Positions 1-37,262 of a stretch of 64,000 nt of DNA are shown here, piece after piece (position 1 is the first letter of the stretch; each line of letters opens with the position of its first letter). Origin of the DNA: Fimbriimonadales bacterium (GTDB taxonomy: Bacteria > Armatimonadota > Fimbriimonadia > Fimbriimonadales > GBS-DC). Position numbers and translations under genes: made by a program. A model generated the notes under the pieces. It was not told the origin of the DNA. It saw only the letters and a program-made list of their open reading frames with translations, and did not search any database. The DNA lies in contig AP024673.1 of the NCBI GenBank assembly GCA_025998675.1, positions 957,221 through 1,021,220 on the forward strand, written 5' to 3'.

Positions 1-2607
1 TTTCTGGAGCTGGTGCGTCCCATCCCGTTCCTCAACGGCGGGCTGTTTGAATGCCTCGATGAGGTCTACCGCAAAGAGGAGAACCGCCCCGACCGCCGCA
101 TCGACGGCTTCTCCGACCACCCCAAAAACCCCCTGCATGTGCCCGACTATCTCTTCTTCAGCGAGGAGCGCACGGTAGACATCAGCCGCGCCTTCGGCGA
201 GAAACGCACCGCCCGCGTGCGCGGACTCATCCACATCCTCAAACGCTACAACTTCACCGTGACCGAAAGCACGCCGCTGGACCAGCAGGTCGCGCTCGAC
301 CCCGAACTCGCGGGCAAGGTGTTCGAAAACCTGCTGGCAGCCTACAACCCCGAAACCGCCACCACCGCCCGCAAAGCCACTGGCTCCTACTACACCCCGC
401 GCGAGATTGTCGACTTTATGGTCGAAGAGTCGCTGATTCGCGTGCTACACGACGCGCTTCAGCAAGCGCACCCCGACGCGCCCCACATAGAACCCCGCCT
501 GCGCCAGCTGTTCGACGAAAACGACGACGCCAACCCCTTCAACGAAGCCGAAACCCGCGCGCTCATCGACGCTCTCGACGCGCTCAAAACGATTGACCCC
601 GCCTGCGGCTCCGGCGCGTTCCCGATGGGCATGCTGCACAAACTCGTGTTCCTGCTGGGCAAACTGGACCCCCGCAACGAACGCTGGAAAGAGAAACAGA
701 TCGAACGCGCCCGCGCCCTCCCCGGCCCCGAAGTGCGCGAGAAGGTCATCGAGGACATCGAAAACGCCTTCGAACGCAACGAGCTGGACTACGGGCGCAA
801 ACTGTTCCTGATCGAAAACGGCGTCTACGGCGTCGACATCCAGCCCATCGCCGTGCAGATTGCCAAAATGCGCTTCTTCATCGCGTTGATTGTAGACCAG
901 CAGCCCGACCCCAGCCAGCCCAACAGCGGCGTCCGCCCGCTGCCGAACCTCGAAATCCGATTCGTCGCCGCCGACACGCTCAAGCGCATCCGCCAGAAAC
1001 CGCAGGAGGCGATTCCCGACCCGCACATCGAGCAGCTCAAAGCGCAGATTCGGCAGGTGCGCCAGCAATACTTCACCGCCCGCACGCCCGAAACCAAGCA
1101 GAAGCTGCGCCAGAAAGACGCCGACCTGCGCCAGCAACTCGCCCAGGAACTCAAAAAAAGCGGCTGGGACGACGCCGCCGCCCAAAAACTCGCCCGCTGG
1201 AACCCCTACGACCAGAACGCCTCCGCCCCCTTCTTCGAACCCGAATGGATGTTCGGCGTTTCGGAAGGCTTCGATATTGTCATCGGCAACCCGCCCTACA
1301 TCCAGCTCCAGAAAGCCTATGACGCCAAACGCAAATACGCCGACCTCTATATCGACGAAGGCTACTTCACCTTCGACCGCAGGGGCGACATCTACTGCCT
1401 CTTTTACGAGCGCGGGCTGGAGCTGCTCCGCTCTGGCGGAATCCTGGCGTACATCACCTCCAACAAGTGGATGCGCGCGGGCTACGGCGAAAAACTGCGC
1501 CAGTATTTCGCCGAAAAAACCAACCCCCTGCTGCTGATTGACCTCGGACCGGGCGTGTTCGAAAGTGCCACGGTGGATACGAACATCCTGCTGGCGCAAA
1601 AAGCATCCAATCAGAAGCGCCTGCACGCGCTGACCTACACCGACCGCGCGAAGAGCCTGCGCGAGGCGACGCAGACCCAGAGCGTCGTGCTGAACAACCT
1701 CTCCACAGGCGCATGGTTCATCGGCGGCGACGCCGAACAGCGACTAAAAGGGAAAATCGAGGCTCTCGGCAAACCCCTGCGCGACTGGGAGGTGAAAATC
1801 TATCGCGGCATTCTGACGGGCTTGAACGAGGCGTTCATTATTGACACGGCGACGCGCGAGCGAATTTTAGACGCCTGCAAAGACAACGCCGAACGCCAGC
1901 GCACCGAAGCGCTTATCAAACCCATCCTGCGCGGACGCGACATCAAACGCTACGCCTACGAGTGGAAGGGGTTGTGGGTGATTGGTACCTTTCCAGCCCT
2001 GCGTCTCAATATCGAGGACTACCCTGCAGTCAAGAAGTATTTCCTTGAACACTTCGATATCCGCCAGTTAGAGCAATCAGGCAAAAGGTATCCAGAGCTC
2101 GGCTTTTCTGCGAGAAAGAAGACAGGCAATAAATGGTTCGAAACACAAGACCAGATTGCCTACTACGCCGAGTTTGAGAAGGAGAAGGTGGTGTGGCAGG
2201 AGTTAGCACAGGGGGCGCAGTTTGCCTACGACCCTGAGGGTCGGTTTTTCGTGTCCAACACGGCTTACATCCTCACAGGTAAGAACATCAAATATTTGTT
2301 AGCCTATCTCAATAGTAATCTTAATCTGTATGCTTATGAAAAATGGTACTGCACAAAGATTGGCAGTAGTGGTGTACGCTGGTTGAATCAGCATGTTTTG
2401 GATATTCCAGCGCCCCCCATCACCCCTGAAAACCAGTCGCTGGCAGCGCAGATTGAGTCGCTGGTGGAGCAGATTCTGGCGCGGAAGCGGGGCAACCCGA
2501 ACGCCGACACCGCCGAACTGGAGCGCGAAATCGACCGCCTCGTCTACCAGCTCTACGACCTCACCCCCGAGGAGATCAGGCTGGTGGAATCGAGCGTGCG
2601 TAGGTGA
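1..2607 (+). CDS. Eco57I/TaqI-type DNA adenine methylase (type IIG or PglX-like), copy A, 5' partial
   Basis: The reading frame is open from the first base, so the N-terminal part lies outside the window; compared with the full copy at 3147-6692 about 310 residues are missing. It predicts an N6-adenine DNA methyltransferase of the Eco57I class. Visible are the YTPREIV motif, SAM-binding motif I (DPACGSGAF), motif II around YGVDIQPIA, and catalytic motif IV (GNPPY). A TaqI-like C-terminal specificity region follows. Its recognition segment contains GTFPAL and RKKTGNKWFETQDQ, typical of one TaqI-C recognition-domain type, and differs completely from the matching segment of the next gene. The nuclease part of a type IIG enzyme would be N-terminal and cannot be judged here. 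The gene could be a restriction-modification enzyme or a BREX PglX-like methylase; no other BREX gene is visible. Confidence 0.88.
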   Translation, partial: FLELVRPIPFLNGGLFECLDEVYRKEENRPDRRIDGFSDHPKNPLHVPDYLFFSEERTVDISRAFGEKRTARVRGLIHILKRYNFTVTESTPLDQQVALDPELAGKVFENLLAAYNPETATTARKATGSYYTPREIVDFMVEESLIRVLHDALQQAHPDAPHIEPRLRQLFDENDDANPFNEAETRALIDALDALKTIDPACGSGAFPMGMLHKLVFLLGKLDPRNERWKEKQIERARALPGPEVREKVIEDIENAFERNELDYGRKLFLIENGVYGVDIQPIAVQIAKMRFFIALIVDQQPDPSQPNSGVRPLPNLEIRFVAADTLKRIRQKPQEAIPDPHIEQLKAQIRQVRQQYFTARTPETKQKLRQKDADLRQQLAQELKKSGWDDAAAQKLARWNPYDQNASAPFFEPEWMFGVSEGFDIVIGNPPYIQLQKAYDAKRKYADLYIDEGYFTFDRRGDIYCLFYERGLELLRSGGILAYITSNKWMRAGYGEKLRQYFAEKTNPLLLIDLGPGVFESATVDTNILLAQKASNQKRLHALTYTDRAKSLREATQTQSVVLNNLSTGAWFIGGDAEQRLKGKIEALGKPLRDWEVKIYRGILTGLNEAFIIDTATRERILDACKDNAERQRTEALIKPILRGRDIKRYAYEWKGLWVIGTFPALRLNIEDYPAVKKYFLEHFDIRQLEQSGKRYPELGFSARKKTGNKWFETQDQIAYYAEFEKEKVVWQELAQGAQFAYDPEGRFFVSNTAYILTGKNIKYLLAYLNSNLNLYAYEKWYCTKIGSSGVRWLNQHVLDIPAPPITPENQSLAAQIESLVEQILARKRGNPNADTAELEREIDRLVYQLYDLTPEEIRLVESSVRR

Positions 2608-2746
2608 AGCTGCTGGCGCTTATGGAGGCAGGTTTTTTCACACCCTGCCTGTAGCAAAGACGGCTGAACCCGTGCCTGTAATACCAATTAGCGTGTCAGA
2701 CTTCGTAATTGCCGTGCGTTTCCAGCCAGAGCCACGCGCGTCTTTG

Positions 2747-2861
2747 CCCTCACCCCCAGCCCCTCTCCCGCGCGGCGGGAGAGGGGAGCCGCGCAAGCCT
2801 TGCACAACACGCTATCCCCCTCTCCCAACGGGTTGGGAGAGGGGGACAAAGGGGGTGAGGG
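2747..2861. repeat. Nested GC-rich palindromes
   Basis: The outer arms CCCTCACCCCC (2747-2757) and GGGGGTGAGGG (2851-2861) are perfect complements. Inside are two further perfect hairpins: 2760-2771 with 2775-2786 (12 bp) and 2816-2829 with 2832-2845 (14 bp). The result is a three-way cruciform-like structure. Sequences of this CCCTCACCCCCAGCCCCTCTCCC type are common interspersed repeats in many bacteria. It may act as a terminator for the methylase gene, although no T-run follows. Confidence 0.8.
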
Positions 2862-2945
2862 CTACAGGCGTCGGTAATTAACGAACTCTGACGGCGCATT
2901 TGGTATAATACCTATCGGCGGCTCATAGTTCGCAAAGCAGCAATG

Positions 2946-3003
2946 TATGGAGTGCGGAAGCGGAGCTTCCGCGCGGCTGAAGCTCCCGCTTCCGCACTCC
3001 ATA
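2946..3003. repeat. REP-like palindrome, copy 1
   Basis: The left arm begins TATGGAGTGCGGAAGCGG and the right arm is its complement ending CCGCACTCCATA, an 18-bp perfect stem. Related GAAGCGGGAGCTTC-containing palindromes occur at 7031-7088, 26881-26912 and 31785-31843, so this is a dispersed family. Confidence 0.8.
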
Positions 3004-3146
3004 GTCGCAGGGTGCGGGCAACAAGCACGCCTCTGCAGGCGCGTGCGAGGCAATTAACGAACTCTGACCGCGTAGTTGGTATTAAACCTCCCTAACAAAC
3101 CCTATCGGGTATCCTTCTATCATCCGATAATCACAGAGGGTGCGCC

Positions 3147-6100
3147 ATGCAGAATCTCTACGCGCCGATTGAGCGGATATTGCATAGTGAACGGTTGGGC
3201 GAGCGGCTGGGCGAGCTGTTTTGCAGCGTGCTGAACTGGGGCGCGCTGCGTGCGCAACCCCTCACGCTCAAAGTCAACGCGCCCGTGAATCAGACGTTGA
3301 CCCTGTACCCGATTGCCCAGATGAGCGGCTTGCCCGTGTTCCGGGTGGACTGGCACGCTGCCCGCCTGCCTTCTCTTACCGCCCGACGCGCCGTCTATCG
3401 CGCCCTCGCGCCCACCTACACCGAACACCTGCTCTGCTACAGCAACGCCAATCACTCCGAACTCGTTTTCACATGGGCGCGCCAACGCCCCGACGGCAAA
3501 ACTGAACTCCGCTCGCTCCCGTATACCCGCGGCGCCCCCGCCCGCACCACCCTCGAACGGCTCGCCGAGCTCCACTTCAGCATGCAAGAGATCCTGCAGG
3601 GTGAACCCACCCTTCCTGTTGTGCTGGATAAGCTCAACCGCGCCTTCGATGTCGAAAGCCTTTCCAAACAGTTCTATCAGGAGGTCGCCAACTGGTACTT
3701 CTGGGCATGTCAGGAAGTGCAGTTTCCCACACCCACCTCCCGCGAAGAGACCAACCGCGACGCCTACATCGCCCAGAGCGTCATCCGCCTCATCACCCGC
3801 CTGCTGTTCTGCTGGTTCCTCAAAGCCAAGGGGCTGATTCCCGACGACCTGTTCGACGAGGGCGCGCTGGCGAGCCTGCTCAAAGGCAACGAGCCGCTCG
3901 CCGCCAGCCAGCAAACCCGCTTCTACAAAGCCATCCTGCAGAACCTCTTTTTCGCGACGCTGAACCAGGAGCAAAACCAGCGCGCCTTCCGCAAGCGCAA
4001 CCCCAGCGGACTGGACCCCCATCGCGGCATTACCAACCTCTACCGCTACGAAGACCTCTTCATAAACCCGAACGACTTCCTGAATCTGGTGCGCCCCATC
4101 CCGTTCCTCAACGGCGGGCTGTTCGAATGCCTCGATGAGGTCTACCGCAAGGAGGAGAACCGCCCCGACCGCCGCATCGACGGCTTCTCCGACCACCCCA
4201 AAAACCCCCTGCATGTGCCCGACTATCTCTTCTTCAGCGAGGAGCGCACGGTAGACATCAGCCGCGCCTTCGGCGAGAAACGCACCGCCCGCGTGCGCGG
4301 ACTCATCCACATCCTCAAACGCTACAACTTCACCGTGACCGAAAGCACGCCGCTGGACCAGCAGGTCGCGCTCGACCCCGAACTCGCGGGCAAGGTGTTC
4401 GAAAACCTGCTGGCAGCCTACAACCCCGAAACCGCCACCACCGCCCGCAAAGCCACTGGCTCCTACTACACCCCGCGCGAGATTGTCGACTTTATGGTCG
4501 AAGAGTCGCTGATTCGCGTGCTACACGACGCGCTTCAGCAAGCGCACCCCGACGCGCCCCACATAGAACCCCGCCTGCGCCAGCTGTTCGACGAAAACGA
4601 CGACGCCAACCCCTTCAACGAAGCCGAAACCCGCGCGCTCATCGACGCTCTCGACGCGCTCAAAACGATTGACCCCGCCTGCGGCTCCGGCGCGTTCCCG
4701 ATGGGCATGCTGCACAAACTCGTGTTCCTGCTGGGCAAACTGGACCCCCGCAACGAACGCTGGAAAGAGAAACAGATCGAACGCGCCCGCGCCCTCCCCG
4801 GCCCCGAAGTGCGCGAGAAGGTCATCGAGGACATCGAAAACGCCTTCGAACGCAACGAGCTGGACTACGGGCGCAAACTGTTCCTGATCGAAAACGGCGT
4901 CTACGGCGTCGACATCCAGCCCATCGCCGTGCAGATTGCCAAAATGCGCTTCTTCATCGCGTTGATTGTAGACCAGCAGCCCGACCCCAGCCAGCCCAAC
5001 AGCGGCGTCCGCCCGCTGCCGAACCTCGAAATCCGATTCGTCGCCGCCGACACGCTCAAACGCATCCGCCAGAAACCGCAGGAAGCCCTCCCCGACCCGC
5101 ACATCGAGCAGCTCAAAGCGCAGATTCGGCAGGTGCGCCAGCAATACTTCACCGCCCGCACGCCCGAAACCAAGCAGAAGCTGCGCCAGAAAGACGCCGA
5201 GTTGCGCCAGAAACTCGCCGACGAACTCAAAAAAAGCGGCTGGGACGACGCTACCGCCCGCATGCTCGCCCGTTGGAACCCCTACGACCAGAACGCCTCC
5301 GCGCCGTTCTTTGACCCCGAATGGATGTTCGGCGTCTCAGAGGGCTTCGATATCGCCATCGGCAACCCGCCCTACATCCAGCTCCAGAAAGCCTATGACG
5401 CCAAACGCAAATACGCCGACCTCTACCTCGACGAGGGCTACGCCACCTTCGACCGCAGAGGCGACATCTACTGCCTCTTTTATGAGCGCGGACTGGAGCT
5501 GCTGCGGGAAGGGGGTATCTTAGCCTACATCACCTCCAACAAGTGGATGCGCGCGGGCTACGGCGAAAAACTGCGCGCATACTTCGCCAAGAACACCAAC
5601 CCGCTGCTGCTGATCGACCTCGGACCGGGCGTGTTCGAAAGCGCGACGGTGGACACGAACATCCTGATACTGCAGAAAGCGCCCAACCAGCAGAACCTGC
5701 GCGCGCTGACCTACACGGACCGCGAAAAGAGCCTGCGCGAAGCGACCCAGACGCAGGGCGTCGTGTTGCACAACCTCTCCGCAGGCGCATGGTTCATCGG
5801 CGGCGACGCCGAACACCGGCTGAAACAAAAAATCGAAGCCGTCGGCAAACCCCTGCGCGAGTGGGATGTAAAAATCTATCGTGGCATACTGACAGGCTTG
5901 AACGAGGCGTTCATCATCGACACGGCGACGCGCGAGCGAATTTTAGACGCCTGCAAAGACGACGCCGAACGCCAGCGCACAGAGGCGATTATCAAGCCTA
6001 TCCTGCGCGGACGCGACATCAAACGCTACGCCTACGAGTGGAAAGGGTTGTGGGTGATTCTGGCAAAATTCGGATTTTACAAAGAGGCGCACCTCTACCC

Positions 6101-6692
6101 TGCTATTGTAGCGCACCTCAGCCAGTACGAAAAGGCGCTGAAGAATCGCGGGCAGTGCCGCTACGGACGCACGGGCAAGAAGACCAACGCCGACTACCCC
6201 GGTCAGCATCACTGGCTGGAACTCGATAATAACCCGCACGACGACTACTTAGCCGAGTTTGAGAAGGAGAAGGTGGTGTGGCAGGAGTTAGCACAGGGGG
6301 CGCAGTTTGCCTACGACCCTGAGGGTCGGTTTTTCGTGTCCAACACGGCTTACATCCTCACAGGTAAGAACATCAAATATTTGTTAGCCTATCTCAATAG
6401 TAATCTTAATCTGTATGCTTATGAAAAATGGTACTGCACAAAGATTGGCAGTAGTGGTGTACGCTGGTTGAATCAGCATGTTTTGGATATTCCAGCGCCC
6501 CCCATCACCCCTGAAAACCAGTCGCTGGCAGCGCAGATTGAGTCGCTGGTGGAGCAGATTCTGGCGCGGAAGCGGGGCAACCCGAACGCCGACACCTCCG
6601 CGCTGGAGCGCGAAATAGACCGCCTCGTTTACCAGCTCTATGACCTCACGCCAGAGGAGATGGCGCTGGTGGAATCGAGCGTGCGTAGGTGA
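3147..6692 (+). CDS. Eco57I/TaqI-type DNA adenine methylase (type IIG or PglX-like), copy B, full length (1181 aa)
   Basis: This is a predicted N6-adenine DNA methyltransferase with its own specificity domain. In order: an N-terminal region of about 400 residues, the YTPREIV motif, motif I DPACGSGAF at residues 509-517, motif II near VYGVDIQPI, catalytic NPPY at 740-743, and a TaqI-like recognition region from about 960 to the end. The recognition segment at about 972-1034 contains ILAKFGFY and QYEKALKNRGQ; it is unlike the same place in copy A while both flanks match. A length near 1180 fits type IIG single-chain enzymes and also PglX. I do not see a convincing PD-(D/E)XK motif in the N-terminus, so nuclease activity is open. 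The ATG at 3147 follows CAGAGGGTG as a weak ribosome-binding site. Copies A and B probably methylate different sequences. Confidence 0.9.
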   Translation: MQNLYAPIERILHSERLGERLGELFCSVLNWGALRAQPLTLKVNAPVNQTLTLYPIAQMSGLPVFRVDWHAARLPSLTARRAVYRALAPTYTEHLLCYSNANHSELVFTWARQRPDGKTELRSLPYTRGAPARTTLERLAELHFSMQEILQGEPTLPVVLDKLNRAFDVESLSKQFYQEVANWYFWACQEVQFPTPTSREETNRDAYIAQSVIRLITRLLFCWFLKAKGLIPDDLFDEGALASLLKGNEPLAASQQTRFYKAILQNLFFATLNQEQNQRAFRKRNPSGLDPHRGITNLYRYEDLFINPNDFLNLVRPIPFLNGGLFECLDEVYRKEENRPDRRIDGFSDHPKNPLHVPDYLFFSEERTVDISRAFGEKRTARVRGLIHILKRYNFTVTESTPLDQQVALDPELAGKVFENLLAAYNPETATTARKATGSYYTPREIVDFMVEESLIRVLHDALQQAHPDAPHIEPRLRQLFDENDDANPFNEAETRALIDALDALKTIDPACGSGAFPMGMLHKLVFLLGKLDPRNERWKEKQIERARALPGPEVREKVIEDIENAFERNELDYGRKLFLIENGVYGVDIQPIAVQIAKMRFFIALIVDQQPDPSQPNSGVRPLPNLEIRFVAADTLKRIRQKPQEALPDPHIEQLKAQIRQVRQQYFTARTPETKQKLRQKDAELRQKLADELKKSGWDDATARMLARWNPYDQNASAPFFDPEWMFGVSEGFDIAIGNPPYIQLQKAYDAKRKYADLYLDEGYATFDRRGDIYCLFYERGLELLREGGILAYITSNKWMRAGYGEKLRAYFAKNTNPLLLIDLGPGVFESATVDTNILILQKAPNQQNLRALTYTDREKSLREATQTQGVVLHNLSAGAWFIGGDAEHRLKQKIEAVGKPLREWDVKIYRGILTGLNEAFIIDTATRERILDACKDDAERQRTEAIIKPILRGRDIKRYAYEWKGLWVILAKFGFYKEAHLYPAIVAHLSQYEKALKNRGQCRYGRTGKKTNADYPGQHHWLELDNNPHDDYLAEFEKEKVVWQELAQGAQFAYDPEGRFFVSNTAYILTGKNIKYLLAYLNSNLNLYAYEKWYCTKIGSSGVRWLNQHVLDIPAPPITPENQSLAAQIESLVEQILARKRGNPNADTSALEREIDRLVYQLYDLTPEEMALVESSVRR

Positions 6693-7170
6693 AGCTGCTG
6701 GCGCTTATGGAGGCAGGTTTTTTCACACCCTGCCTGTAGCAAAGACGGCTGAACCCGTGCCTGTAATACCAATTAGCGTGTCAGACTTCGTAATTGCCGT
6801 GCGTTTCCAGCCAGAGCCACGCGCGTCTTTGCCCTCACCCCCAGCCCCTCTCCCGCGCGGCGGGAGAGGGGAGCCGCGCAAGCCTTGCACAACACGCTAT
6901 CCCCCTCTCCCAACGGGTTGGGAGAGGGGGACAAAGGGGGTGAGGGCTACAGGCGTCGGTAATTAACGAACTCTGACGGCGCATTTGGTATAATACCTAT
7001 CGGCGGCTCATAGTTCGCAAAGCAGCAATGTATGGAGTGCGGAAGCGGAGCTTCCGCGCGGCTGAAGCTCCCGCTTCCGCACTCCATAGTCGCAGGGTGC
7101 GGGCAACAAGCACGCCTCTGCAGGCGCGTGCGAGGCAATTAACGAACCCTGACCGCGCAATTGATATAAC
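4077..7170 (+). repeat. Tandem duplication, copy 2 (methylase gene plus spacer)
   Basis: This is the second copy of the unit that begins before the window. Similarity ends near 7170, where the sequence runs into the promoter region of the UDP-sugar dehydrogenase. The spacer is virtually identical to that of copy 1, so the event is recent or the copies are being homogenised. Confidence 0.93.
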
Positions 7171-7174
7171 CCCT
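6767..7174. repeat. Composite inverted-repeat spacer after methylase copy B
   Basis: This is the same arrangement as the spacer at 2682-3089, shifted by 4085 nt: nested GC-rich palindromes at 6832-6946, the REP-like palindrome at 7031-7088, and the 34-bp ends at about 6769, 6959 and 7135. The last end has drifted (AATTAACGAACCCTGAC). No gene is seen between 6693 and 7263. Confidence 0.8.
7031..7088. repeat. REP-like palindrome, copy 2
   Basis: Identical to the palindrome at 2946-3003 (offset 4085), with an 18-bp perfect stem starting TATGGAGTGCGG. Confidence 0.8.
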
Positions 7175-31216: not shown

Positions 31217-31657
31217 TTATTGCCCGCGTCCTTCGCGGATGGCGTTCTGCAGCCCTCGAATCTGGCTGTTGGCGATACGCGCCAGCATCGAGTAGCGCAT
31301 CTGGTTCTCGGCGAGTTGCGCCAGTTCGTATTCGGGGTCTATCGTGTTGCCGTCGGTGCGCGTGGGCGTCGGCTGCGGCGCGGGGGTTGCTTCGCGCGGC
31401 TGGACGCTGGGCGGCAGGCTGACATGGCGCGGGTCGGATACGCGCAGGGGCAGCGCGCCCGCCTGCATCGCGCGTTGCACGGACGGCGCCGGCGCGGATT
31501 CGCCCTCAGGCAGGTCCATCCGCACGAAATTCGGCGTGTTCGCGTTCGCGAGGTTGTGCGCCAGCAGCTTGTGGCGCGTCGTCGCGCGGTTCATCGCTCG
31601 TTCACTCGCCTGCAGAGTCGGCGTGTCCCAAAAGGTACGGTAGTTGCTAATCCGCAT
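31217..31657 (-). CDS. flgB: Flagellar basal-body rod protein FlgB (146 aa)
   Basis: This is the proximal rod subunit and first gene of the operon. It shows ERAMNRATTRHKLLAHNLANANTPNF and the C-terminal LAENQMRYSMLARIANSQIRGL. AGGAG lies 9 nt before the ATG. Its transcript should have a leader of about 67 nt that contains a stable hairpin (31691-31711). Confidence 0.94.
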   Translation of the reverse strand: MRISNYRTFWDTPTLQASERAMNRATTRHKLLAHNLANANTPNFVRMDLPEGESAPAPSVQRAMQAGALPLRVSDPRHVSLPPSVQPREATPAPQPTPTRTDGNTIDPEYELAQLAENQMRYSMLARIANSQIRGLQNAIREGRGQ

Positions 31658-31690
31658 ACCGCGTCGCTCCTCTCGCGTCCGTGCAACAGT

Positions 31691-31711
31691 GCGCCCACCT
31701 CCTGTGGGCGC
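31691..31711 (-). promoter_or_regulatory. Hairpin in the flgB operon leader
   Basis: GCGCCCAC and GTGGGCGC form an 8-bp perfect stem; on the mRNA strand the loop region reads AGGAG. It lies between the predicted start of transcription and flgB, too far upstream to be the ribosome-binding site of flgB. Confidence 0.45.
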
Positions 31712-31718
31712 GTTCTGT

Positions 31719-31890
31719 TAAGTGCCTTTGCATTATATTTTCAACTGTCCCACTACCTGTAAGGCGTGCGCGGTTAGCGTGCATTTTGGAGTGCTGAAGC
31801 GGGAGCTTCAGCATGCGCGGAAGCTCCGCTTCCGCACTCCATAAAGACGGCGCTGCCGCACATGTCGCAATTCTCGCGCAAAGGCACTTA
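31719..31890. mobile_element. MITE-like palindromic element with 13-bp terminal inverted repeats
   Basis: TAAGTGCCTTTGC (31719-31731) is perfectly repeated inverted as GCAAAGGCACTTA (31878-31890), enclosing 146 nt with a REP-like palindrome at 31785-31843. The right half is related to the element at 26858-26960. No coding capacity is seen. The -10 box of the flagellar operon lies directly inside the left end. Apart from this element and the leader hairpin, the 315-nt gap holds only the two divergent promoters. Confidence 0.55.
31732..31737 (-). promoter_or_regulatory. Predicted -10 box TATAAT of the flagellar operon
   Basis: A perfect TATAAT on the minus strand, 74 nt before flgB and immediately inside the 13-bp inverted repeat of the element at 31719-31890. 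It lacks the GG prefix seen elsewhere. I see no sigma-28 or sigma-54 type sequence. Confidence 0.5.
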
Positions 31891-31958
31891 GAAAACCTGC
31901 TTACCGATTATCGGCGCGGGGGGGCGAAAGGTTTAGGGGTAAGCATGCCTGCTCTGGG

Positions 31959-31964
31959 TACACT
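31959..31964 (+). promoter_or_regulatory. Predicted -10 box (GGGTACACT), leaderless type
   Basis: TACACT ends 8 nt before the ATG of the exporter adaptor gene. Confidence 0.55.
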
Positions 31965-31972
31965 ACGACCGT

Positions 31973-33397
31973 ATGCGGCGATGGTGGTGGGCGGCGGCGC
32001 TGATAGTTGCAGCGTCTGCGGTGTTGCTCTGGCGGCAGGGGCGTATGCAGCCGCCTGAAGTGCGCGTGGCGCAGGCTGCCTACGGCGTGCTGAAAGTGCC
32101 GTTCAGCGCGGAGGGGATTGTTCGCGGCTGGGACGCGCATATTTCCCTGCCTGTCCCCGCACAGGCGACGGAGGTGCTGGTGCGCGAAGGCGAGACAGTG
32201 CGGCGCGGGCAGGCGCTGGCGCGGTTCTGGGCGGGCGATCTGGAAAGTGCGGCGCAAAGCGCGCAGGCGCGTCTGCAGGCGGCGCAGAACGCCCTGCGCG
32301 AGGCGCAGCAGACATACCTCTACGCACGCGCTCAGGTTCGGGCGAACCGCCAGCGCGCCGAAGCGACGGTTCAAGCGGCAGAGGCGTCCTTGCGCCTGCT
32401 CGAGCGGGGCGCGCGCCCAGAGGAGATCGAACAGGCGCAGCAGGAGGTGGACGCGGCGCAATCGGCTTTCGAACTGGCGCAGCAGAACGCCGCGCGCGCC
32501 GCACAGCTCTATGCGCAGGGCGCGCTCGCTCGCGCCGAATACGAGCGTGCGCTGCATGAGCAACGCGCAGCGGAGACGCGCCTGAAAGCGGCGCAGGCGC
32601 GCCTGACCCAGCTCCAGCGCGGCGCACGCCCCGAAGAGCTGGAGTCGGCGCGCGCACGCCTCGCCGCCGCACGCGCCGAACTGCAACTCGCGCAGAGCGA
32701 GCAGGCGCGTCTCCGCGCACTGCAGGAGCGCGTCGCCATCGCGCGGGCGGCTCTGCGTGAAGCACAGGCGTCGCTGCAGGGAGTCGACCGCACCCGCGAA
32801 CTGCGCGTGCTGACTGCGCCGCGCGACGCCGTCGTGGCGCGCGTTCTCATCGAATCGGGCGAAAGCGTTGCGCCCGGAACGCCCGCGATTTATCTGGTAG
32901 ACCCCCAATCGCTCTGGGTGGAGGCGGAGCTGACGCAGGAAGACGCCGCCAAAGTGCAGCCGGGCAATCGCGTGCGCGTGCGTGTGCCTGCGCTGCCCGG
33001 ACGCAGCTGGGAAGGCGTCGTCGAGTCGCTCCTGCCCGCTCTGGAACGCAAGCCCGACTCCCCGCTGGATGTGCGCATTCTGCGCGTGCGGGTCAAAGTG
33101 CTGAAGCCGCCCCCAGAGCTGCGCCCCGGCATGGAAGTCAGCGTCGAGGGCGAGGGACATCTGGGCGCGGAGACGCTCCTTGTGCCCAGCGACGCGGTCA
33201 TCGAGGAGCCTGACCGCACATGGGTGTGGGTGGTCAAGCGGGGCGTTGTGCAGCCACGGGCGGTGAAGACGGGCTACTTCACCTATCACTCTACCGAGAT
33301 TACCGACGGGTTGCGTGCAGGCGAGTGGGTGGTGGTTGGGGGCAAAGAGGGCTTGAAAGCGGGCATGCGTGTACGGGGGCGTCCGCAGTCGCCATGA
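31973..33397 (+). CDS. Periplasmic adaptor (HlyD/MacA-like) of an ABC exporter (474 aa)
   Basis: This membrane-fusion protein would link an ABC exporter to the outer layers. One N-terminal membrane anchor (WWWAAALIVAASAVLLW) is followed by a split lipoyl/barrel-sandwich domain (ATEVLVREGETVRRGQAL ... VVARVLIESGESVAPG) that brackets an unusually long, Ala/Gln/Arg-rich coiled-coil hairpin of about 190 residues. A beta-barrel and membrane-proximal domain end the protein. The stop codon overlaps the ATG of the ATPase gene (ATGA), so the three genes form one unit. The start follows a TACACT box by 8 nt. Confidence 0.92.
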   Translation: MRRWWWAAALIVAASAVLLWRQGRMQPPEVRVAQAAYGVLKVPFSAEGIVRGWDAHISLPVPAQATEVLVREGETVRRGQALARFWAGDLESAAQSAQARLQAAQNALREAQQTYLYARAQVRANRQRAEATVQAAEASLRLLERGARPEEIEQAQQEVDAAQSAFELAQQNAARAAQLYAQGALARAEYERALHEQRAAETRLKAAQARLTQLQRGARPEELESARARLAAARAELQLAQSEQARLRALQERVAIARAALREAQASLQGVDRTRELRVLTAPRDAVVARVLIESGESVAPGTPAIYLVDPQSLWVEAELTQEDAAKVQPGNRVRVRVPALPGRSWEGVVESLLPALERKPDSPLDVRILRVRVKVLKPPPELRPGMEVSVEGEGHLGAETLLVPSDAVIEEPDRTWVWVVKRGVVQPRAVKTGYFTYHSTEITDGLRAGEWVVVGGKEGLKAGMRVRGRPQSP

Positions 33398-34101
33398 AAC
33401 CTGCGCTCATCGAGCTGCGCGAAGTGAGCAAAATCTATCGGCGCGACGCGACGGAAGTGCATGCGCTCCGCGCGGTGAACCTCCGCGTGCAGACGGGCGA
33501 GTTTGTCGTTGTGCTGGGTCCCAGCGGCTGCGGCAAAAGCACCCTGCTGAACCTGATTGGCGGTCTGGACCAGCCCACGCACGGCGCGGTGCTGGTGAAC
33601 GGGACAGACATCAGCCATTACACCGAGACCCAGATGAGCCTCTACCGCCGCCACACCATCGGGTTTGTGTTTCAGTTTTTCAACCTGATCCCGTCCCTGA
33701 CCGCCCGCGAGAACATTCAGCTGGCTGCCGATCTGGTGGAGAACCCGCGCTCAATCGACGAGCTGCTACACGCGGTGGGCTTATCGGAACGCGCCGATCA
33801 CTTCCCGGGGGAGCTGAGCGGCGGCGAACAGCAACGGATTGCCATCGCGCGTGCGCTGGTCACGCGCCCTCCCATCCTGCTCTGCGACGAGCCGACCGGG
33901 GAGCTGGACTCCACCACGGGCAAGCGCATCCTGAGCCTGCTGCTGGACATCAACCGCCATGAGGGGCAGACGGTCATTCTGGTGACGCACAACTCGGTCA
34001 TCGCGGCGATTGCCGACCATGTGGTGCGCCTGCGCGACGGGCAGATTGAGTCGGAAACCTACCCTGCGGAGCGACCTGCGGTGGAGGCGTTGCAATGGTG
34101 A
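33394..34101 (+). CDS. ABC transporter ATP-binding protein, MacB/LolD type (235 aa)
   Basis: This ATPase powers the FtsX-like permease encoded next. Walker A is GPSGCGKST, the signature is [15 protein letters not shown], Walker B is [13 protein letters not shown], and the H-loop lies in VTHN. The sequence [17 protein letters not shown] is typical of the MacB/LolD family. The ATG at 33394 overlaps the adaptor stop codon; an open frame upstream lies within the adaptor gene and is not used. Confidence 0.95.
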
Positions 34102-36506
34102 GCCGAACGCTCGGGCGCAAGCTATGGCGCGAACTCTGGCGGGCGCGCTGGCAATACGGCTCCGTTGCGCTCATGATTATGCTGGGGGTGGCGTTTTTCG
34201 CCGGGATTAGCGGCTTGTATTTGAGTTTGAAGCGTTCCCTGCACGCCTCGTATGAGCGGTATCGCCTGGAGCATTTTCGGATAACCATGCGCAGCGCGCC
34301 CGCCAGTGTGGTGGAACAGCTGCGTCGGCTTGAGGGCGTTGCGGCGGTCGAGGGGCGTCTGGTCGAGCCCGTGATTCTGGAGCTGGGGAATGTGCGCACG
34401 CGCCGACTGACAGGCAGGCTGATAGGAATCGAGACGCGCCGCCCCCTGCAGGTCAATCGGCTGCACCTGCTGCAGGGGCGTCTCCTGCACGGCGCGATGA
34501 GTCGGGAGGCGCTGCTGGAGAGCCGATTCGCCGCCTATCACGGACTGCAGCCGCGCGATACCCTGACCATCCGCTGGCGCAACGAGCGGGCGCGGCTCAC
34601 GATTGCGGGCGTCATTCGCAGTCCCGAATACATCTATGTGATTCAGAGCAAGCAGCAGGTACTCCCCTCAGAGGATGTGTTTGGGGTGTTATTCGCCGCG
34701 CGTGAGACGGTGGGCGCGCTCACGGGGCAACCGGGGCGCATCAACGAGGTGTGCGTCTCCGTTCGGGAGGGCTACGACGCCACGCGCGTCGCTCGATCCG
34801 CGCGCCAGTTGCTTGCCGCTTACGACCCGGAGCCGCCCGTTCTGCGCAAGGACCAGCCCAGCTACTATGTGCTGGAGTCGTCGCTCGATGAGCTGCGCAC
34901 TTTTGCGGTCTTTTTCCCGGTGCTGTTCCTCAGCGTGAGCATCCTGACCCTGTATACGCTGCTCATGCGCCTGATTACGCAGCAACGGCATGTGATAGGT
35001 CTGTTGCGCGCGCTGGGCTACACTCGTGCGCAGGTATCGCTGCACTATCTCAGCGCGGCGCTGCTGGTGGGGCTTGTCGGAGGGGTCTGTGGCGCGCCGC
35101 TGGCGCTGGCGCTTTCGGACGGGCTCTCGCGCCTCTATCTGGCGTTCCTCGCGCTGCCTGTGATTGAGCTGGGCATGCCGTGGACGCAAATCGGGATTGG
35201 CGGGGTGATGGCGCTGGGCGCGACGCTGATTAGCGGTGTACAGCCCGCGCTGCAGGCGTCCCGAATTCCGCCTGCACAGGCGCTTCGCGCCGCCGCCCCG
35301 ACCGTCGGGCGCGTGTGGAGCATGGATCGGTATATCCCCTTCCTCAATCGGGCGCGCCTGCGCTATCGGCTCCCGCTGCGCAACCTCTCACGCTCGTGGC
35401 GACGCACGCTCGTTGGGGTGCTTGGGATTGCGCTGGGGGTGATGATGGCGATGCTCGCGCGCGGCATCATGGACTCGCGCGACGCCGTACTCGCGGACTA
35501 CTTCGCCCAGGTGCTGAGCGAGGATGTGCGTGTCGGGTTTGCGCAACCGCAGGACGCCAGCATCGTCCATCGGGTACGCGGGTGGCGTGGCGTGGCGCAT
35601 GCGGAGGGGGTTCTCGAACTTCCCGTCCGGCTCCGACGCGGCGCCCGCGCCTACGACGCGCTCCTGCGTGCGGTGGAGCCCGATAGCCCGCGCCTGCGCC
35701 TGCTGACGGAGGCTGGCGCGCCCGTTGCGCTCACAGGGCTGGTCTGTGGGCAGGTCGTTCAGGAGCGTCTGGGGCTGGAGCGCGGCGATGTGGTCGCCCT
35801 GTCGCTGCCTGCTGAGCTGCTGGACGAATCGCCTGTGGAGACCCCCATGCGCGTGCATGGGCTGGTCTGGGAGACCATCGGCACGGTGGTCTACATGCCC
35901 CGCGACCAGGCGCTGGCGTGGCTCCGCCGCCAGATGCAGACTCCGCCCAACGCGATTAATAGCCTACGCCTCTGGGTGCGCCCCGAATACCGTCGCGAAA
36001 TCATTCACGCGCTCAACCAGCTCCCCGATATTGGCGCGATTGTGGTCAGCGACGAGATTATTCAGCGGTTCCGCCAGCTCGATGCGCTGGCGCGTCAGTT
36101 TTTCTACTTCATGATGGCGTTCGGCATGGTGCTTGCGGTCGGGGTCATCTTCAGCGTGGTGACCATCAGCGTGCTGGAGCGACGCAGCGAAATCGCGACT
36201 TTGCTCACCATCGGCTTCCGACGGCGCGAGGTGTACGGGCTTATCCTGGGCGAGAACATGCTCCTTGTGACGCTGGGCGTGCTGCTGGGGCTGGTCTTCG
36301 GGCGGGTGATGGTTTTTGTGGCGATTCAGGCGCTTGTGCCTTCGGAGCAGGCGGAGCTGATTGCCTTCCGCCCGCACATTACATGGCAAACTTACGCCTT
36401 CACCGCTCTGTTGAGCTGGGGCGTGGGTTTGCTGGCGCAGTTCCCCGCCCTGCACACGATGACGCGAATCGATCTGGTCGCCGCGTTGAAGGAGCGCGTG
36501 AGCTAA
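34095..36506 (+). CDS. FtsX-like ABC transporter permease, MacB-like (803 aa)
   Basis: This is the membrane part of the exporter. It contains two FtsX units: helix 1 near residues 17-37, a large extracytoplasmic domain, then three helices (about 275-400). A repeat of this plan starts near 430 (RTLVGVLGIALGVMMAMLARG) and ends with three more helices (about 675-800). The two-unit, eight-helix plan at about 800 residues resembles the MacB-type 'two FtsX modules' subgroup such as DevC/YbbP, not the four-helix MacB. It overlaps the ATPase gene by 7 nt. Export of a lipid, peptide or lipoprotein is possible; the substrate is unknown. Confidence 0.92.
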   Translation: MVSRTLGRKLWRELWRARWQYGSVALMIMLGVAFFAGISGLYLSLKRSLHASYERYRLEHFRITMRSAPASVVEQLRRLEGVAAVEGRLVEPVILELGNVRTRRLTGRLIGIETRRPLQVNRLHLLQGRLLHGAMSREALLESRFAAYHGLQPRDTLTIRWRNERARLTIAGVIRSPEYIYVIQSKQQVLPSEDVFGVLFAARETVGALTGQPGRINEVCVSVREGYDATRVARSARQLLAAYDPEPPVLRKDQPSYYVLESSLDELRTFAVFFPVLFLSVSILTLYTLLMRLITQQRHVIGLLRALGYTRAQVSLHYLSAALLVGLVGGVCGAPLALALSDGLSRLYLAFLALPVIELGMPWTQIGIGGVMALGATLISGVQPALQASRIPPAQALRAAAPTVGRVWSMDRYIPFLNRARLRYRLPLRNLSRSWRRTLVGVLGIALGVMMAMLARGIMDSRDAVLADYFAQVLSEDVRVGFAQPQDASIVHRVRGWRGVAHAEGVLELPVRLRRGARAYDALLRAVEPDSPRLRLLTEAGAPVALTGLVCGQVVQERLGLERGDVVALSLPAELLDESPVETPMRVHGLVWETIGTVVYMPRDQALAWLRRQMQTPPNAINSLRLWVRPEYRREIIHALNQLPDIGAIVVSDEIIQRFRQLDALARQFFYFMMAFGMVLAVGVIFSVVTISVLERRSEIATLLTIGFRRREVYGLILGENMLLVTLGVLLGLVFGRVMVFVAIQALVPSEQAELIAFRPHITWQTYAFTALLSWGVGLLAQFPALHTMTRIDLVAALKERVS

Positions 36507-37262
36507 TCATGTCCCCTGCGCTTGCTGCACCGCCAGCCAGTGTTCGAGGCGGTCGATGTCCGTGCCGACTTCGGGATACGGGGTCAGGATGGCTTTGACG
36601 GGCACATGCAGGATTCGGGCGATGCGCTGTTCAATCTGCTCGATGCTCAGCAGGCGGGGCGAGAGGTACTGCGCCAGCAAGAACCGCACGAGTAGCCCGA
36701 CGCCGATTTGCATCGCAAGGCGCACAGGCTGTTTGCGCGCGCGGTAGAGCGCTTCCAGCCGATGGAGTTCGCGCAGGGCGACGGTGCGCCGCGCCCAGAA
36801 CAGGTTGCCTCCCGTGACCTCGCCCTCGCGCAGGCGCACGGTCGTGCGCGTCAGCTGCGGGAACCGCTGGCGGCACAGGTCGGCGGGCACAACAGCGTAG
36901 GTCAGTGCAGCGCGGCTTTCGAGACTCGCCTGCAGAAAAAAACGCACGCTCTCAGCGGTCAGAAACGGCAGGTCAACCGTCGCAAACAGCGCCGATTCGG
37001 TCTGGCTCCGTTCCAGCCCCAGGCGCACATTCTCCAGCAGGGTGTCGCGTGGGGGCAGGGTGGTGTAGCCCGCGCCCTGCGGAGCGTCGCCAATCAGCAG
37101 GATGGAGTCGATTCCCTCGACCGCCTGCAGCGCGCGCACGACATGCAGGTACATCGGCGCGTCGCCGACGACGACCTCGGCGCGGGAGCGCGCGCCCGTT
37201 TGTTCGCGCCATGCGGCGTCTATCGCGCCGCCAGCCAGCACAATCGCAGTGGTCGGCTCCAT
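36507..37262 (-). CDS. MobA-like nucleotidyltransferase (251 aa)
   Basis: The N-terminus has a nucleotide-binding start (TTAIVLAGGAIDAAW) and the family continues with LFATVDLPFLTAESVRFFL, the usual place of the metal-binding Asp. This matches the MobA-like NTP-transferase family, which transfers a nucleotide to a sugar phosphate or molybdopterin. The usual LAGG.S.RMG loop is altered (AGGAIDAAW), so the classical molybdopterin guanylyl activity is doubtful. A C-terminal extension of about 60 residues is present. It is convergent with the permease gene, with no gap. Confidence 0.75.
   Translation of the reverse strand: MEPTTAIVLAGGAIDAAWREQTGARSRAEVVVGDAPMYLHVVRALQAVEGIDSILLIGDAPQGAGYTTLPPRDTLLENVRLGLERSQTESALFATVDLPFLTAESVRFFLQASLESRAALTYAVVPADLCRQRFPQLTRTTVRLREGEVTGGNLFWARRTVALRELHRLEALYRARKQPVRLAMQIGVGLLVRFLLAQYLSPRLLSIEQIEQRIARILHVPVKAILTPYPEVGTDIDRLEHWLAVQQAQGT

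Follow-up and report, generated by a model that had tools for sequence, protein, structure and literature searches.

A MITE with a REPIN core in the predicted leader of a flagellar operon, downstream of a predicted sigma-28-type promoter

The 172-bp element at positions 31719-31890 of the window (the whole 64,000-nt stretch of Fimbriimonadales DNA that was analysed) is very probably a MITE that inserts at TA, has a REPIN as its core and entered the leader of the flgB operon, between an older, conserved sigma-28 promoter and the ribosome-binding site, and neither made nor replaced the promoter. This reading is based on sequence comparisons within the host genome and among its relatives. The analysis describes, in Armatimonadota, a small mobile element uniting TA-inserting ends with a REPIN core; it also discards a promoter assignment that appears to be wrong and puts a precise, testable one in its place. 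The features concerned are the following.

31217-31657, minus strand: flgB (TIGR01396, 73.1 bits against a cut-off of 59.05)
31658-31901, minus strand: predicted 5' leader of the mRNA of the flgB operon, with the MITE inside, placed from the -10 position and the flgB start codon; its start is a prediction
31691-31711, minus strand: leader hairpin GCGCCCAC[AGGAG]GTGGGCGC with GGA in the loop
31719-31890, no strand assigned: MITE, 172 bp including both TA dinucleotides (core 31721-31888), recognised by its 13-bp terminal inverted repeats and 35 paired-end copies
31719-31731, plus strand: left terminal inverted repeat TAAGTGCCTTTGC, target TA included
31878-31890, minus strand: right terminal inverted repeat, target TA included
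31732-31737, minus strand: TATAAT named in the earlier note, probably not a promoter
31788-31840, no strand assigned: REPIN of two inverted GGAG-tagged REPs found by pattern matches, one on the plus strand from 31788 and one on the minus strand from 31840
31908-31935, minus strand: predicted sigma-28/FliA-type promoter of the flgB operon, TAAA-N16-GCCGATAA, the only match in the window, with a conserved -10

The element and its family in the host genome

The repeat coordinates in the window confirmed the structure described in the earlier note, a 172-nt element with 13-bp perfect terminal inverted repeats and an internal palindrome. The two terminal repeats are a perfect inverted match with 146 bp between them, and the inner palindrome arms lie at 31784-31802 and 31826-31844, at 31792-31800 and 31805-31813, and at 31802-31812 and 31817-31827. 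The hexamer ATTATA at 31732-31737, which reads TATAAT on the flgB strand, adjoins the inner edge of the left repeat, as had been stated. On the minus strand the order flgB, flgC, fliE, fliF, fliG was supported by Pfam/NCBIfam, the identity of flgC being given by gene order together with its Flg_bb_rod/Flg_bbr_C domains, and the operon order proposed earlier (flgB-flgC-fliE-fliF-fliG-fliH) stands for these five genes. Their frames are intact beside the insertion.

Other repeats were also observed in the window. Its segments 1-300 and 4077-4376, as well as 2160-2459 and 6245-6544, are 98-99% identical at a spacing of about 4.08 kb, and this suggests a tandem duplication of 1-3089 as 4077-7174. 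A 41-nt dispersed repeat occurs at 2873-2913, 3049-3089, 6958-6998 and 7134-7174, and the end of this repeat sequence is directly adjoined by two MITE copies elsewhere in the genome (1637430 and 2397009).

The host genome contains at least 49 matches to the element at E<=1e-3 (with 40 of the 172 first-look candidates scored), and the element is therefore beyond chance. Its end pattern TAAGTGYCKTTGC has 65 exact occurrences in the genome and none in the reversed control. The end pattern TAAGTGYCTTTGC was present in 4 of the 18 family genomes, and a search with the 172-bp DNA gave matches in 3 of 61 genomes, the host genome counted. We assembled at least 35 paired-end copies, 130-172 bp long, from 46 chosen own-genome loci, which is not an exhaustive set, after two duplicate pairings had been dropped. 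An outer TA is found on both sides of 25 of these 35 copies; the 10 copies without TA on one or both sides were excluded from the target test. Of the 25 copies, 20 have a target that reads YTAR, a pattern shown by 10.2% of the 2206 TA sites that these flanks supplied as background (p=5e-16), and TTAG or CTAA alone made up 17 of the 25. Moreover, the tandem copies at 1435880-1436040 and 1436039-1436198 have a single TA in common (1436039-1436040). The shared TA and the TA flanks are, as far as sequence can tell, the footprint expected of a TA-duplicating transposon. Thus the element has the features by which MITEs are recognised, being short, non-coding and multicopy with perfect or near-perfect terminal inverted repeats, and a fixed TA target duplication is indicated by the TA that borders 25 of the 35 copies at both ends, the tandem pair with one TA and an empty site at flgB that is approximate. 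By these features it is to be regarded as real and mobile in type, a combination of two known kinds, MITE and REPIN.

An autonomous parent transposase with the same ends was not found with PF13358 and PF01609; Y1_Tnp was searched only for the RAYT gene. PF13358 (IS630-type DDE_3) had no match in the host genome, and the 9 matches to PF01609 (DDE_Tnp_1), spread over 3 genomes, all lay outside matching terminal-repeat pairs. The own-genome stretches L151-L155 entered the all-locus scans only. Two candidate parents were rejected: the 1.8-kb terminal-repeat pair at 1112590-1114380 proved to be a MITE whose REP has been entered by an unrelated IS701-like element, and the C84 transposase of G008, the closest relative, belongs to an IS with ends of its own that sits in a MITE end. 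The IS701-like element (below the family cut-off) is inserted in two different MITE copies, at an identical point of their REP hairpins (L149, 466-2097; L031, from 1576).

The core of the element consists of two inverted, tagged REP hairpins, as in a REPIN. The REP pattern was counted 256 times in the host genome, 174 times in G008, 14 times in G016 and not once in G004, G006 or G010, with zero in every reversed control. The REPs of the host genome outnumber the MITE copies recovered from it, and G008 is rich in REPs although the MITE end pattern is rare there. Two Y1-transposase (Y1_Tnp) genes are present in the host genome. One of them, at 1509374-1509634 within its ORF, scored 100.9 bits against a cut-off of 80 with NF047646 (REP-associated tyrosine transposase), and its product matches the solved TnpA-REP structure 4ER8 (E=2.6e-8). 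The same REPs flank this RAYT gene on both sides, here and at its counterpart in G008, as known from REPIN/RAYT systems; the second Y1-transposase gene has no flanking REPs of this kind. The tag in the element is GGAG and not GTAG. Since the described REP families carry a GTAG tag (PMC3733652, PMC8266576), the GGAG REPs are, judged by their pattern, a tag variant of them. Armatimonadota is not among the phyla named for GTAG repeats in a passage of PMC3733652.

Many copies lie at gene ends. The TA of a stop codon (ORF of at least 100 codons) was the site of 11 of the 25 intact copies, compared with 75 of 1286 background TA sites (p=1e-7); for YTAR sites in the background the figure was 17 of 153 (p=2e-4). 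A Pfam-supported gene ends at the MITE in 7 of these 11 cases (L014, L013, L026, L019, L028, L020 and L041); 4 have no Pfam hit, and in one of them (1637430) the ORF runs antisense to a gene. In two (L014 and L013) the MITE parts convergent genes, at 1304346 (methyltransferase/FtsX) and 2431491 (SRP54/PurK), and both genes gain TAA. It is possible, though we consider it rather doubtful, that the family inserts by preference at the TA within stop codons, especially at TTAG/CTAA between back-to-back convergent genes, and that the flgB copy is an off-pattern case in a sigma-28 leader. If so, each convergent gene would receive a newly formed stop codon, as the ends begin with TAA, and would acquire a hairpin at its 3' end. 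Selection against other sites could explain the stop-codon bias as well as targeting does.

The flgB promoter and the insertion site

The predicted sigma-28 promoter at 31908-31935 lies outside the element, upstream of it on the flgB strand. TAAA-N16-GCCGATAA had this one match in the window and none in 100 shuffles; genome-wide it had 7 matches, and the reversed control had none. The genes following these sites include flgB, a flagellin (PF00669), an FlhF-like SRP54 GTPase, a pilin-like protein and others, among them an FlgM-like gene, a weak match (E 0.08), and a PilB-like ATPase, which was named by eye; to the sixth of the other sites no following gene was assigned. A FliA model match above the cut-off was found in all 18 family genomes, the host included. 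Thus the host genome has fliA and other flagellar targets besides flgB. The sites before the pilin-like gene (L103, N_methyl) and the PilB/GspE-like gene (L108) are of sigma-28 type, a hint that sigma-28 may also serve type IV pili in this genome.

FlgB was matched in 52 of 60 relatives, and upstream DNA was examined in the 16 belonging to the same genus or family and in the host genome; in G005 this DNA is truncated, leaving 15 testable relatives. The exact octamer GCCGATAA is present upstream of flgB in 14 of the 15, G017 being the one that has no such octamer. Exact TAAA at a spacer of 16 was seen in 5 of the 14 octamer-bearing relatives, and G001 matches 1 of the 4 bases. The genes upstream differ: in the window HlyD/ABC/FtsX genes (31973-37262) part an NTP-transferase gene from flgB, while in G008 (L057) flgB directly adjoins the NTP-transferase gene, whose stop codon appears to share bases with the -35 of the sigma-28 site.

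None of the 15 testable relatives has the element at flgB, and among the matches listed, no relative's match to the 172-bp element lies on its flgB contig. When joined, the window flanks align across the site with G008 (84% FlgB identity), with one TA left and 7 bases gapped where the element went in, so that the empty site is approximate and the 2-bp duplication at flgB is not established base by base. The distance from the start of the -10 octamer to the ATG is 258 nt here versus 81 nt in G008, the element accounting for 170 nt of the difference. Both comparisons that the earlier note had proposed, the count of element ends in the genome and the flgB upstream region of relatives, which have the site and lack the element, thus bear out the mobility that it had raised as a possibility: the mini-element is of mobile type and has many copies.

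The same cannot be said of its suggestion that the insertion created or replaced the flagellar promoter by bringing in the -10 box. The hexamer is an exact TATAAT on the correct strand, some 75-80 nt upstream of the ATG. However, the best match to TTGACA at a spacing of 16-18 bp is 2/6, and a consensus scan of 31500-32100 gave no sigma-70 site, and hence no sigma-70 promoter at an element end of the Correia type. The 64-kb window contains TATAAT 14 times, only 2 of 35 MITE copies carry a TATAAT that faces outward and lies no more than 40 nt from an end, and the conserved sigma-28 promoter lies upstream of the element. We therefore consider a MITE-borne promoter very improbable. A related proposal is that two promoters act, the upstream sigma-28 one and a weak housekeeping one in the MITE giving basal early flagellar expression. 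The -10 hexamer is exact, and sigma-28 control of a basal-body operon would require basal expression from some other source, but with no -35 in the scan and no element at flgB in the 15 testable relatives this too appears quite unlikely. An insertion downstream of a pre-existing sigma-28 promoter remains our preferred reading.

The leader RNA

If the insertion point is as proposed, between the conserved promoter on the minus strand and the flgB ribosome-binding site, transcription would start near 31900, only a few bases ahead of the element, and the entire element would therefore be transcribed, making the leader longer by 170 nt. The predicted fold of this leader has a z of -5.8, and none of 200 shuffles folds as well. 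In it the element pairs end to end, closing through its terminal repeats, and its RNA would fold into an independent hairpin that precedes the Shine-Dalgarno region. The effect is likely to be neutral, or modest by way of mRNA processing or stability.

It could be argued instead that selection keeps the element at flgB for a function in the leader, as a switch or as an RNA-processing site (an RNase III target or an attenuator). The very stable fold would be compatible with such a role, and RNase III cleavage of the Correia element in mtrCDE is a precedent. Nevertheless, of the 16 loci whose upstream DNA is long enough, only that of the host genome has the element at flgB, the copies of the family are scattered, many of them at gene ends, and the consensus scan of 31500-32100 gave no terminator. 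We regard this explanation as unlikely and return to that of an ordinary insertion into the leader.

Between the element and flgB we observed the hairpin at 31691-31711, whose stem score was reached by 0 of 300 shuffles that kept mononucleotide content only. A GGA-loop hairpin precedes a conserved GGACGCGAGAGGAG upstream of flgB both in the window (31658-31712) and in the leaders of relatives (L057-L072); the loop is AGGAG in the host genome and in G008, with stems that differ. By its sequence, this hairpin is suggestive of a CsrA double site. A csrA gene gave no regex or tblastn match in 687 kb, mostly fragments of several genomes.

Comparison with known systems

ERIC/RUP-type MITEs insert at TA. 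The likeness of the element to them is one of size class and of TA insertion, by description rather than sequence, and ERIC is counted among MITEs in PMC3733652. With REPIN/BIME and RAYT it shares a core built of inverted, tagged REPs, a REP count in the hundreds and a REP-flanked RAYT gene; the differences are the GGAG tag and the embedding of the REPIN in a terminal-repeat element with TA ends.

Basal-body flagellar genes are usually early genes and not sigma-28 genes, and the placement of a sigma-28 site at flgB is therefore unusual. The predicted promoter shares exact TAAA and GCCGATAA with the sigma-28/FliA promoter of E. coli, with FliA present, whereas its spacer of 16 is one base longer than the 15 of the E. 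coli consensus TAAAGTTT-n11-GCCGATAA (PMC2859248). Here it would drive an early basal-body operon, which points to an Armatimonadota basal-body operon under a sigma-28-type promoter.

With the Correia elements of Neisseria (CREE/nemis) the MITE has in common that a short element with terminal inverted repeats lies at TA sites, in many copies, and forms a transcribed hairpin, which is here a prediction. It differs in its ends and core, in the REP doublet and in that no sigma-70 promoter was detected. In Neisseria meningitidis, a Correia element located between the native promoter and mtrCDE is carried in the mRNA and cut by RNase III (PMC2649163). The position of the MITE within a leader is ordinary, and we consider the mtrCDE Correia element the nearest published parallel to the MITE at flgB.
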